Assembly (NCBI GenBank): GCA_001898385.1
Contig: MKTT01000101.1
Coordinates: 1-64,000 of the forward strand
DNA: 64,000 bases
Reading direction: 5' to 3'
Origin: Planctomycetales bacterium 71-10
GTDB taxonomy: Bacteria; Planctomycetota; Planctomycetia; Isosphaerales; Isosphaeraceae
The translations under genes were made by a program, and so were the position numbers. Shown piece by piece: positions 11,774 to 42,535 of the stretch (its first letter is position 1; the number at the start of each line of letters is the position of its first letter). The notes under the pieces are model-generated. The model did not search any database. It had not been told where the DNA came from and saw only the letters and a program-made list of their open reading frames with translations.

Positions 11774-12418
11774 TCAATCCGGCTTCACGTCCCGGATCTC
11801 GACCGTCCGGAACGCGATGGTCCCGCCGTGGTTCTGCAAGCAGACGTAGCCGCGGAGGGGCTTGTCCTTGATCGCCGCGACCTCGCGCTGGTCGACGTCC
11901 TGGATCGTCTTGCCGTTCAGCACCACCCGGATGCGCGGGCCCTGGCACGTCACGTCGAGGGCGTTCCACTCTCCGGCCGGCTTCAGGGCGTTCTCGCGGG
12001 GCGCCACGTAGCGGTAGAGCGAGCCGCTGCTGTGGACGTCCGGGGCCTTGCCCACGTCGTCGATGAGCTGGATCTCATACGAGTAGAGCGAGGGCCGCGT
12101 CCCGCGCGAGTCGGCCGGGTCGAACGGGCGGGTCCGGACGCCGATGCCGCTGTTGCACTTCGGGGCCATGCGGAATTCGACGTGGAACGTGAAGTCGTCG
12201 AACTCGCGCTCCTTGTAGCGCAGGAATCCGAACCCCTTCCCCCGGCAGACGATCTGCCCGTCCTCGACGACCCACACCGGGGCCTTCGCGCCGTCGATCA
12301 CCGTCTCCGACGCCCCTTCGGCCACCCAGCCGTCGAGGCTCTTGCCGTCGAACAGCGGCGTCGCCCCGTCCTCGGCCGCGACGCCGACCAGACCCATCGC
12401 GAGCAGCGCGATCCACAT
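11774..12418 (-). CDS. Exported DUF1080 (3-keto-disaccharide hydrolase-like) protein
   Basis: A 214-residue protein with a short signal peptide and one DUF1080 domain, a concanavalin-like beta sandwich. LFDGKSLDGW near residue 22 is the classic opening. NSGIGVRTR and GEWNALDVTCQG follow in the expected order, ending at QNHGGTIAFRTVEIR. DUF1080 proteins are greatly expanded in planctomycetes; some hydrolyse 3-keto-glucosides. It is on the same strand as the DUF900 hydrolase, 214 bp upstream of it. Confidence 0.9.
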   Translation of the reverse strand: MWIALLAMGLVGVAAEDGATPLFDGKSLDGWVAEGASETVIDGAKAPVWVVEDGQIVCRGKGFGFLRYKEREFDDFTFHVEFRMAPKCNSGIGVRTRPFDPADSRGTRPSLYSYEIQLIDDVGKAPDVHSSGSLYRYVAPRENALKPAGEWNALDVTCQGPRIRVVLNGKTIQDVDQREVAAIKDKPLRGYVCLQNHGGTIAFRTVEIRDVKPD

Positions 12419-12898
12419 GGTCTCTCACCCCGAGACAGGAATCATCCGGAAGGGATCGGCCCGCCCCGGTTCTGCGGGCCGAGAGATGGCGAGGATCCTA
12501 GCACGACCCGCCGGCCCGATCGAGGGCCTACGCGTCGTCGCCGGGCCCTCGCCGCACGAGCCGGCGACGGCCGTCTTTTTTTCCGGATTCCTGAAATCGC
12601 GACGCGAGGCGCCGCGATCTTACGTCGATGATGGGCGTTCCGATCTTTGACAATTCGACGACGGAATGACGTGCGAGGACCGGTGCCGTCCGGCAGGACC
12701 GGCATGCGGAGTCGCCCCCGGGGCGAGGCCCCCGCGGGACCGATTCGCCTCAAGAGCACCAGATACGAGCATCGATCCAGGTCGCCCATGTCGTCCCCTC
12801 TGCCGCCGGGAGAGGGCGGCCGCGCAGCGGCGGGTGAGGGTCGCCGGGGCGCGGAGGGCATGCCGGGCGCGAAGGCCGAGCAAGCCGAACGACGACGG

Positions 12899-13184
12899 CC
12901 TTCTCCCTCAAGGGTGCTCCATCGAAAACATGCCGATGCGAGTCGAGCACGGTCTTCCCCCCTCGCGGGGGAAGATAGACGCCGAAGGCGTCAGATGAGG
13001 GGGACGCGCAGCACGGGCGCCGTCGGGATCCGAAGGCCCGCCCGACCGGCCCGGGATCCCGACGGCCGTCGTGCTCGTCCTCCCCCTCATCCGGCCCTTC
13101 GGGCCACCTTCCCCCGCCAGGGGGGAAGGCCGTTCATCGCTCTCATCCCGAGTGCCTTCGACGGAGCACCCTTGAGGGAGAAGG
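12899..13184. repeat. 22-bp perfect inverted repeat flanking element A
   Basis: Bases 12899-12920 and 13163-13184 are exact reverse complements (22 bp). They enclose element A and lie inside the outer pair, forming a second layer of the nested structure. Confidence 0.8.
12954..13128 (+). repeat. Dispersed composite inverted-repeat element, copy A
   Basis: A 175-bp element bounded by CTTCCCCC and GGGGGAAG. Order: boundary hairpin, GACGCC-GAA-GGCGTC hairpin, ATGAGGGGGA box, conserved core with a 12-bp inverted repeat (13019-13030 and 13055-13066), CCCCCTCAT box, GGCCC-TTC-GGGCC hairpin, boundary hairpin. The same order is found in copies B and C. Non-coding. Confidence 0.8.
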
Positions 13185-13460
13185 GCTCGATGGCGGCGCT
13201 TTTCCCGAACTCCGACGACCCTCACCCGGCCCTTCGGGCCACCCTCTCCCGGCGGGAGAGGGGACGTCGTTGGGGATCGGCGGAAGGCGGTCGGGCCGAA
13301 CGTCGCGGCGATCAGCCCGGCGGGAGCGATGAAAATCGACGCTTCGAAAACGACGAGCGAACCCAGATTTTCAGCGACGCAAGATATTAAGCCTCAACAC
13401 CTTGAACCGCATCCAAGGGAAGGACGATTCCTACGAACGGAGCCAAGGCGACGGGGCCCG

Positions 13461-14300
13461 TCAGGGCCGGGCGGTGCGTCGCGGGGAGTCGATGGGCTGG
13501 GGGGCGTCGCCGTAGGCGAGGACGGGGTCGTTGGGGGGCGGGGTGCGGCGGTCGGCCAGGAGGCCGCGGTGCCAGGAGCGCCAGGCGCGGTCCAGCTCGC
13601 GGACGTCGGAGAGGCCGTAGTGCTCGATGGTCGCCTCATCCCAGCCGGAGCGGAGGCCGTCGCGGACGAAGCGGAGGAAGCGCGGCCGGCCGCCGATCTC
13701 GATCAGGAACCGCGAGATGGAATAGCCCTGGCCGTAGAAGGCCATCAGGTCCTTGGGATACTCCTCGATGACGAACAGCTCGGCGAGGCCGATCTCGCCG
13801 CGGCGGGCGACGAGGTCGGCGGCGATCTGGTCGTGCCGCTTGCGCTCGCGCTCGTCCTCGCTCAGGAGCGAGGCCCCCTCGTCCGCCCAGCGCGGCATGG
13901 GGCCGCCGAAGAAGGCGGCGAAGACGGTGTGCGTGACCTCGTGCGGCAGCGACGAGGCCAGGATGCGGTCGAGCCGGCCCTCCACGACCATGCTCTGGTC
14001 GCTGACGTGGCCGTGGTCGAAGCCGAACGAGGTCAGGCCGCCGGCCTCGCCGCCGGTGAGCTTCACCTTGATCGGGCAGGGCTGGGCCCAGTCGGGCAGC
14101 TCGCGGCCGAGCCACGCCTTCGCGATCGCCCGTCGGCACTCCTCGGCGCGGTCGCCGACCTGCTGGGCGACCTCGCGGGTCGGGGCCTGGACCTCGAAGT
14201 TCGTCGTCCGGTACGAGGCGGCCCCGGACGGCAGCGTCGCGAGCGACAGGGCCAGGGCCGCGACGAGGCGAGACGACGACCGGGCGCAGTGAGCATCCAT
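13461..14300 (-). CDS. Exported HExxH metallopeptidase-like protein
   Basis: A 279-residue protein with a signal peptide (residues 1-28). HEVTH at 120-124 and the downstream RWADEGAS at 138-145 reproduce the zinc site of gluzincin-like peptidases (HExxH plus a later Glu, peptidase MA clan). It probably cleaves peptides outside the cytoplasm; no substrate can be named. ATG at 14300 is preceded by a GAGGAG site, and longer frames upstream lack a signal peptide. It could be catalytically weak, as the family is loosely defined. Confidence 0.75.
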   Translation of the reverse strand: MDAHCARSSSRLVAALALSLATLPSGAASYRTTNFEVQAPTREVAQQVGDRAEECRRAIAKAWLGRELPDWAQPCPIKVKLTGGEAGGLTSFGFDHGHVSDQSMVVEGRLDRILASSLPHEVTHTVFAAFFGGPMPRWADEGASLLSEDERERKRHDQIAADLVARRGEIGLAELFVIEEYPKDLMAFYGQGYSISRFLIEIGGRPRFLRFVRDGLRSGWDEATIEHYGLSDVRELDRAWRSWHRGLLADRRTPPPNDPVLAYGDAPQPIDSPRRTARP

Positions 14301-14568: not shown

Positions 14569-15924
14569 ATGGAGACGTCCCACTTCCTGATCATCGCCGG
14601 CCTGATCCTGGTCAACGCCTACTTCGTCGCCGCCGAATTCGCGCTGGTGAAGGTGAGGACCAGCCAGATCGAGCAGCTCGCCGAGCAGGGCAACTGGGCC
14701 GCCAAGCTCACCAGCAAGGCGCTCGACCGGCTGGACCTGTACCTGTCGGCCTCGCAGATCGGCATCACGGTCGCGAGCCTGGCGCTGGGGCGGACGATCG
14801 ACGAGTGGATCAACCCGATCGTGGAGCGGGCGCTCGGCTGGATCGGCCTGCCCCACGCGCCGATCGCCGTCGGCGGGGTGTCGATCGCGGTGGTGCCGCT
14901 CCTCTCGCTGTCGTTCGTGACATTCCTGCACATGGCCCTGGGCGAGCAGGCGCCGAAGACGCTGGCGATCCGGGCGTCGCGGATCGTGGCCCTGGTCACG
15001 GCGCCGCCGCTGGTCCTGCTGGCCTACATCTTCTGGCCGCTGATCTGGCTGCTGAACGCGGCCAGCAACCTGACGCTCAAGCTGATGGGGCTGGGGGGGG
15101 CGAGCCACGAGGAGATCGCCCACACCGACGAGGAGATCCGCCACATCCTCGCCGAGAGCGTCGAGGGGGGCCACCTGTCGCGGTCGGAACGGATGATGAT
15201 CGAGAACGTCCTGACCCTGGAGGACAAGACGGCCCGGCGGGTGATGATCCCCCGGCCGGACATCGTCTACCTCAGCCTCTCGCGGCCGATGGAGGAGAAC
15301 CTCCGGCTCGCCCGCCAGGCCGGACACACCCGATATCCCCTCTGCGAGGACGACCTGACGACGGTGATCGGCATGATCCACGTCAAGGACGTCTTCCGCA
15401 GCGGCGGCTTCCAGTCCGGCCGCGTCGACTTCCGCCAGCTCGTCCGCAAGGCCCCGTACCTGCCGGTCACGCTCCCCCTCGACAAGCTGCTGCTGGAATT
15501 CCAGCGCAACAAGATCCACCTGGCGATCCTGCTGGACGAATTCGGCAGCGTCGTGGGGATGGTCACGCTGGAGAACGTCCTGGAGGAGCTGGTCGGGCCG
15601 ATCCAGGACGAGTTCGACCGCGAGTCGCCCGACGTCGCCGACCAGGGGGGCGGCGTCTTCGAGGTCGAGGCGTCCTGCCCGCTCGACCGGCTGGAGGAGG
15701 CGATCGGCGTCAAGCTCCCGGAGACCGACGCCGAGACCACCGGCGGCCTGATCCTCGACCTCCTGGGCCGCCTCGCCCGCGCCGGGGATTATGTGGACGT
15801 GGAGGGCCACCGCTTCACCGTCCTGAAGGCCGACCCGACCCGGATCCGCAAGGTCCGCGTCGAGCCCATCCCCCCCGGCCCGCCGGCCGAGGGCCGCAAC
15901 GGCGACCTCCACGGCGACGGCTGA
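14569..15924 (+). CDS. CNNM/CBS-domain CorC-HlyC family transporter
   Basis: A 451-residue protein. Residues 1-165 are a DUF21/CNNM membrane domain with four hydrophobic segments. Next come paired CBS domains (about 210-345, including VMIPRPDIVYLS and the DEFGSVVGMVTLENVLEELVG stretch) and a C-terminal CorC_HlyC domain. The family mediates Mg2+ and Co2+ transport or resistance; haemolytic activity is only historical naming. The length is standard. It is transcribed alone, divergent from the HExxH gene, and followed by repeat element B. Confidence 0.9.
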   Translation: METSHFLIIAGLILVNAYFVAAEFALVKVRTSQIEQLAEQGNWAAKLTSKALDRLDLYLSASQIGITVASLALGRTIDEWINPIVERALGWIGLPHAPIAVGGVSIAVVPLLSLSFVTFLHMALGEQAPKTLAIRASRIVALVTAPPLVLLAYIFWPLIWLLNAASNLTLKLMGLGGASHEEIAHTDEEIRHILAESVEGGHLSRSERMMIENVLTLEDKTARRVMIPRPDIVYLSLSRPMEENLRLARQAGHTRYPLCEDDLTTVIGMIHVKDVFRSGGFQSGRVDFRQLVRKAPYLPVTLPLDKLLLEFQRNKIHLAILLDEFGSVVGMVTLENVLEELVGPIQDEFDRESPDVADQGGGVFEVEASCPLDRLEEAIGVKLPETDAETTGGLILDLLGRLARAGDYVDVEGHRFTVLKADPTRIRKVRVEPIPPGPPAEGRNGDLHGDG

Positions 15925-16311
15925 ACCGCGAGGGCCTGTTTGAAATATGGCATCCTGACGGCCTTCCCCCCTCGCGGGGGAAGGTGGCCCGAAGGGCCGG
16001 ATGAGGGGGAGGACGCTCCAGACGGCCGTCGGATCGCAGGGGCGGATCCATCGGGCGGGCCTTCGAATCCCGACGGCGCCCCTGCTTCGCGTCCCCCTCA
16101 TCTGACCGCTTCGCGGTCTGTCTTCCCCCGCGAGGGGGGAAGACGTCCGACGCGCTCCAAAGGCACGCCCGAACCGCGAGCCTCCCTGTCCCCTCCCCCG
16201 TCCGCGCGATAGAATCCAGCGGTCCGAGACCTGCGGGATGCGCGGTCGGCCTTACGGCCCGGCGTCGTAGCACCACCCTCCCGGCCGCCGCGGGTCCATC
16301 AGGGGTCGGTC
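15925..16311. other. Gene-free region holding repeat element B and the lutA promoter
   Basis: Bases 15963-16142 are repeat copy B. A TAGAAT hexamer at 16210-16215 lies about 100 bp before lutA and is the probable -10 box of the lut operon, though the -35 box is poor. No gene is visible. Confidence 0.6.
15963..16142 (-). repeat. Dispersed composite inverted-repeat element, copy B (reverse orientation)
   Basis: A 180-bp element inverted relative to copies A and C. Read on the minus strand it shows the same boundary hairpin, then GACCGC-GAA-GCGGTC where A has GACGCC-GAA-GGCGTC, so bases in both arms changed together. The core (16030-16078) also matches A in reverse. The left flank (CATCCTGACG at 15951-15960) matches the right flank of copy C in reverse. 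Confidence 0.8.
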
Positions 16312-42279: not shown

Positions 42280-42535
42280 TCCTGACCGTCACGGATTTTA
42301 GATGGCTGCGACGAAGACGGTCTTCCCCCCTCGCGGGGGAAGACAGACGCCAAAGGCGTCAGATGAGGGGGACGCGGAGCACGCGAGCCGCCGGGATTTC
42401 GGAGGCCCGCATGATCGGCCCGGGATCCCGACGGCCGTCCGGCGCGTCGTCCCCCTCATCCGGCCCTTCGGGCCACCTTCCCCCGCCAGGGGGGAAGGTC
42501 GTCAGGATGGCCCCCAAAATCCGTGACGGTCAGGA
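42280..42535. repeat. 20-bp perfect inverted repeat flanking element C
   Basis: Bases 42280-42299 and 42516-42535 are exact reverse complements (20 bp). They enclose repeat copy C. The sequence differs from the 22-bp flank of copy A, so each copy sits inside its own palindrome. Confidence 0.85.
42322..42497 (+). repeat. Dispersed composite inverted-repeat element, copy C
   Basis: A 176-bp element in the same orientation as copy A. It has the same boundary hairpins, a GACGCC-AAA-GGCGTC hairpin, ATGAGGGGGA box, a core holding CCCGGGATCCCGACGG, and the GGCCC-TTC-GGGCC hairpin on the right. Confidence 0.82.

Follow-up and report, generated by a model that had tools for sequence, protein, structure and literature searches.

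The nested inverted repeat at 12792-13266 of the window (the whole 64,000-nucleotide stretch of Planctomycetales bacterium 71-10 DNA analysed here) is, with a probability of about 0.87, a composite of non-autonomous mobile palindromes that were stacked by insertion. Read from the sequence, this explanation is supported by layers that occur independently of each other, by 9-bp duplications, by sibling loci with empty and occupied targets, by one clean locus in which the middle element sits inside another copy of itself, and by the absence of the composite next to the same gene in congeners. We refer to the outer element as O, to the inner one as A, and to the element that encloses A and lies within O as M.

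Results

The window corresponds to contig C101 of a 7.73-Mb genome in 158 contigs (70% GC). The neighbours of the composite are two minus-strand genes, of which one is presumably DUF1080-like (a label taken from reading its sequence rather than from a search) and the other encodes a 330-aa protein. The sequence-only reading had described a concentric nested inverted repeat of three layers, and our analysis located each of these layers at the coordinates first given, within about 475 bp, although the number of layers proved to be higher than three. The outer pair (12782-12821/13237-13276) comprises 40 nt at 85% complementarity, and pairing goes on at 12823-12854/13205-13236. The left arm of O (12792..12870, plus strand, inner limit approximate) contains an end hairpin, a second hairpin and GTGAGGGTCG..GGAGGGCATG, and the right arm (13205..13266, minus strand) is inverted; both were delimited by their inverted match to one another and by stand-alone O pairs elsewhere. 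The 22-bp pair (12899-12920/13163-13184) matches perfectly and lengthens to 28 nt at 96%. Element A (12949..13134, plus strand), an inner REP-pair element with many stand-alone copies, has end hairpins at 12954-12974 and 13107-13129, second hairpins at 12978-12992 and 13093-13105, and, as had been proposed, its own core inverted repeat at 13019..13066, which measures 13 bp rather than 12 bp (GCCGTCGGGATCC at 13019-13031, GGATCCCGACGGC at 13054-13066). The layers thus comprise the arms of O, a split target hairpin and the 9-bp duplication that belongs to it, the termini and arms of M, and the end hairpins and core repeat of A. Aligned with its reverse complement, the 475-bp region matches along its full length (E 1e-54), and a single strand of the composite folds as one long hairpin at -199.7 kcal/mol vs -123.4 +/- 5.6 kcal/mol for shuffles (z = -13.75), in line with the earlier view that such nesting is hard to explain by chance. 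Spurious open reading frames arise from the repeats at 12442-13390 and 15815-16276, with recurring peptides such as PPHPALRATFPREGG, and such frames are likely to be prone to mis-annotation as proteins.

The 22-bp repeat had been taken for a separate palindromic unit; we found instead that it is the junction of a split hairpin, a target duplication and the M terminus. Its left copy consists of CCTTCTC (7 nt, 12899..12905), the left stem half of the target hairpin, which is unsplit at L028 and at C85:23597; of CCTCAAGGG (9 nt, 12906..12914), the left target duplication as defined by alignment of the M copies; and of TGCTCC (6 nt), the M end. The right copy is the reverse complement, in which the duplication CCCTTGAGG (13169..13177) is followed by GAGAAGG (13178..13184), the right stem half, recognised from the unsplit O sibling and the M alignment. 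Between the two duplications lies M (12915..13168; all these features on the plus strand), a 254-bp MITE with A inside and with the termini TGCTCCATCGAAAACA and TGCCTTCGACGGAGCA. Judging from the unsplit sibling L028, a direct duplication would place CCCTTGAGG at either end of M, whereas the duplications of the window copy are inverted, the left one being flipped relative to the right one. The same flip was found, exactly or nearly so, in two other M copies, and it would most likely have been caused by template switching or gene conversion between the inverted arms. The 22-bp repeat owes its perfect match to the near-palindromic form of the duplicated target and to the flip of its left copy; a perfect inverted repeat can therefore arise by duplication of a palindromic target site, and not from a unit of its own. 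Since the duplications are inverted, the window copy alone would not prove transposition.

Alignment of 21 M+A copies revealed common ends (TGCTGCGTCG...CGACGCAGCA) and a 9-bp target duplication, which is identical in 10/21 copies and has at most one mismatch in 14/21, while none of 20,000 shuffles was as good; about a third of the M copies carry mismatched duplications. M has a 16-bp terminal inverted repeat, with TGCTSCGTCGAAAACA inverted at both ends, and is 54-259 bp long; it holds REP-like hairpins and no transposase gene. Short length, non-coding content, terminal inverted repeats and a duplication of fixed length are the features expected of a MITE. Moreover, 20 of the 21 M+A insertions have as their duplication the loop of the 23-bp palindrome CCTTCTC-CCNNNNNGG-GAGAAGG or a variant of it, a specific insertion into a palindromic repeat that resembles the behaviour of IS1397. 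The target palindrome is scarce (37 unsplit copies in 1.23 Mb), and the binomial probability of 20/21 loop insertions is about 1e-62. The exception, at C84:99503, is an M+A copy in ordinary, non-palindromic sequence with AGTAACAGA on both sides, which shows that M and A move together as a unit. Sibling loci with and without the insertion can also be compared directly: the hairpin of O is intact at C85:23597, and in the same O context at C102:127375 (L009) M+A lies inside it with CCTCAAGGG on both sides. Neither an autonomous element with its transposase nor an insertion sequence with M termini was found among exact or one-mismatch termini in the source genome or the family, exact termini having been searched in 44 other genomes of the family, and the enzyme that mobilises M may have diverged ends or be lost. 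For O and A, we found no target duplication.

The idea of sequential insertion had come with the proposal to search for each layer alone, and these searches support it: O, M and A each occur independently, M+A is found outside O as well, in one case in plain DNA and with the clean 9-bp duplication described above, and the opposite outcome, in which every copy would consist of the same three fixed layers, was looked for and not seen. A search with the whole 475 bp recovered complete composites as well as M+A lacking O and solitary A. Arrangements were counted in a 1.23-Mb sample that was taken largely around A copies and is A-enriched, and they were complemented by genome-wide pattern counts. 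In this sample A alone, with no O or M arm, was the commonest arrangement (54), followed by single O arms (13), O pairs (12), pairs of B (7), O-M-A (5), O-B (4) and M-A (4), B being a third REP-pair family with the end hairpin CCTTCTCCC...GGGAGAAGG. O was seen empty or holding only the 23-bp hairpin, at a length of about 166-212 bp (about 166 bp with no insert). Copies of M that hold neither A nor a full B are rare, with three short ones in the source genome (101, 102 and 103 bp) and others of 54 and 92 bp in the congener G002. Genome-wide, we counted 133 exact A end hairpins, 163 O end hairpins and 29 exact 15-bp M termini; the numbers of end hairpins, the predominance of pairs and an intergenic location by crude gene calls place O, A and B among REP/REPIN elements. 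These copy numbers are lower bounds, because such repeats probably break the assembly: contigs C46, C67, C70 and C93 break inside them. C46 is short (3,009 bp) and densely packed with nested elements, and the other three have their starts inside elements.

About eight composites in the genome share the order O-M-A, as would be expected if the whole 475-bp structure were one fixed mobile unit whose layers are merely internal symmetry. However, each layer is found alone, M+A is found in other contexts, and the split hairpins hold different loops (CCTCAAGGG, CCCTTGAGG, CCACGAGGG, CCCTCGCGG), which points to separate insertions; we consider a fixed unit exceedingly improbable. Under stacking by insertion, M and A travel together, so the event at this locus was mainly the insertion of M+A into O, A having entered M before. 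Mean arm identity is 88% for O, 87% for M and 94% for A, a weak basis for an age order of the layers on which we do not rely.

The 101-103-bp M copies carry the CCTTCTC...GAGAAGG hairpin, imperfect in one of them, at their own centre. Hence, M can enter M and nesting can recurse. At C83:49335-49677 an M lies inside the central hairpin of an outer M, with the flanks GACGCGCAT/GACGCGCGT around the outer copy and CCACGAGGG/CCACGAGGG around the inner one, and removal of the inner M on paper leaves a 102-bp M of the stand-alone type. Similar arrangements were found at L064, where M+A lies in the hairpin of another M, and at C36:209932. Apart from these, an O-M-A composite at L073:14660-15180 (G000:C151) has a fourth layer on its outside, a further inverted repeat (GTTCTGCGCAAGAAATGAGGGCCCCGGGAGC) that is perfect over about 31 bp and resembles the product of fold-back copying from a single flank. 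Outward growth of the whole structure by fold-back copying, in which the end of a hairpin primes on the opposite flank and yields an inverted duplicate without any transposition, would be in keeping with this extra repeat, and the flipped duplication in the window fits template switching. Nevertheless, the direct 9-bp duplications, the insertion into the non-palindromic AGTAACAGA and the M-in-M locus with both duplications kept require transposition for M. As the origin of the onion, fold-back copying is thus very unlikely, and it may act as a minor added process.

A is not restricted to M, and it occurs inside two other wrappers, W1 and W2. W1 has the terminal inverted repeat GGGTGTGCCTTTGGA with 8-bp duplications in about 3/13 copies, whereas no target duplication was seen in the four copies of W2. 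The window itself contains a second A copy (15957..16144, minus strand, A5 end at 16144) and a third (42320-42503), which is centred in a W2 wrapper at 42281..42534 on the plus strand (CCTGACCGTCACGGATTTT ... AAAATCCGTGACGGTCAGG). Sorting of A by wrapper was rejected as a clear pattern, with 32 changes vs a weakly different 37.5 for shuffles and low tree support. Additionally, the wrapper at L068 is a hybrid, its left side being M and its right side W2. A cores seem to be exchanged among wrappers, and the lack of clear sorting together with the hybrid makes frequent recombination among copies likely; such recombination would also account for the mismatched M duplications. Within B elements, a GTAG-tagged REP pair (GTAGGCTGGGTC...GACCCAGCCTAC) occupies the centre at G000:C36:114229-114456 and 122253-122481, L057:95806 and L067:1283; in these cases a classic type of REPIN is nested inside a different element.

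A and O are present in congeners, and the exact matches to A ends listed for named genomes fall in Paludisphaera soli. Full-length or M+A matches were seen in the source genome only, among the best 16 or fewer candidates scored per genome, and the 17-bp M terminus with at most one mismatch gave 50 matches in the source genome vs 0-4 in each of five congeners. Beside the 330-aa gene, the composite is absent in four congeners, and the A copy at 15957-16144 is absent from the orthologous spacer, flanked by the same two genes, in 4/4 congeners. When window positions 12418-13461 were compared with L151-L154, one side (the 330-aa gene, a 451-aa CBS-like gene and the next gene) was conserved in the four congeners and the other was not, and a rearrangement boundary may lie in the spacer of the composite. 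Since gene order is unconserved on one side, the exact pre-insertion site of the window copy is unreadable. An independent onion of nested inverted repeats occupies the corresponding position in the congener G005, hence the nesting habit is not confined to the source species. In this onion (L152), which lies downstream of the homologue of the 330-aa gene, an A-like pair surrounds two more inverted repeats of other sequence (CTCAGTT... and GGGGACTGGCTCC...).

The comparison with congeners also bears on a possible function, in which the hairpin would be retained between its two neighbouring genes because it terminates transcription strongly or stabilises transcripts. The fold is very stable (the z of -13.75 given above), and the elements are enriched between convergent genes (36/100 vs 136/675 spacers, p about 2e-4, by crude gene calls), an enrichment that a terminator function or a tolerance of insertions at gene ends would explain. 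However, a bias to gene ends is also expected under selection against insertions in promoters, the origin of the structure is shown by target duplications and empty siblings, and the four congeners lack the composite beside the 330-aa gene. Hence, we regard a functional hairpin as an improbable explanation and retain stacking by insertion.

Discussion

We propose that O is a REP-pair (REPIN-like) element with the 23-bp hairpin near its middle, and that M is a MITE which nearly always enters the loop of this hairpin, duplicating 9 bp. At the window locus, M, with the REP pair A already at its centre, would have split the hairpin of O, and conversion would then have produced the flipped duplication. 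The target hairpin at the centre of short M copies would let M enter M, and the onion would deepen in this way. A DDE-type transposase probably acts on M in trans, and the palindrome may be recognised either as sequence or as an extruded hairpin.

Like MITEs, M is short and non-coding, with terminal inverted repeats and a target duplication of fixed length; unlike them, it has no parent insertion sequence that we could find in the source genome or the family, and its target palindrome also lies at the centre of its own short copies, so that M nests in itself. O, A and B resemble REP pairs, REPINs and BIMEs, including GTAG- and CGTC-tagged REPs (PMC3733652, PMC3116915), in being intergenic, high-copy pairs of inverted hairpins, but differ from REPs and REPINs in that their arms are much longer and contain two hairpins each. 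As in CGTC-tagged REPs (PMC3733652, PMC3116915), O and many A copies start with CGTC. CGTC precedes the hairpin here, yet the stems begin differently from those of the described families (compared by description), and membership of O and A in the GTAG or CGTC superfamilies is doubtful; for CGTC-type REPs no dedicated transposase is known (PMC3733652). A RAYT-linked REPIN was rejected for O, A and B: none of five Y1 transposase matches has these motifs at its ends. With the REP-targeting insertion sequences IS1397, IS621 and ISPpu9/10 (PMC1525189), M shares specific entry of a transposable element into REP-type palindromes; in contrast to them, it is non-coding and brings the target palindrome along with it, which makes its insertions recursive. 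Our literature search of open-access papers found no precedent for nested or self-inserting bacterial MITEs. We speculate, tentatively, that M could represent a class of self-nesting MITEs, which would recognise an extruded hairpin as such and carry that hairpin centrally, each insertion thereby offering a new target and palindromes growing by recursion; the same homing to palindrome centres might explain why A, B and the GTAG-tagged REP pair lie in the middle of other elements throughout the genus.

Many bacteria harbour short palindromic repeats, but the spread of most of them is poorly understood. This genome has preserved the successive steps, from targets that are still empty through first insertions to insertions nested in earlier ones, each with its duplications, which offers a direct route to asking if a transposase reads a palindrome as a sequence or as a folded structure. 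Long inverted repeats are usually unstable, and the composite shows that they can be built up and retained in a chromosome.
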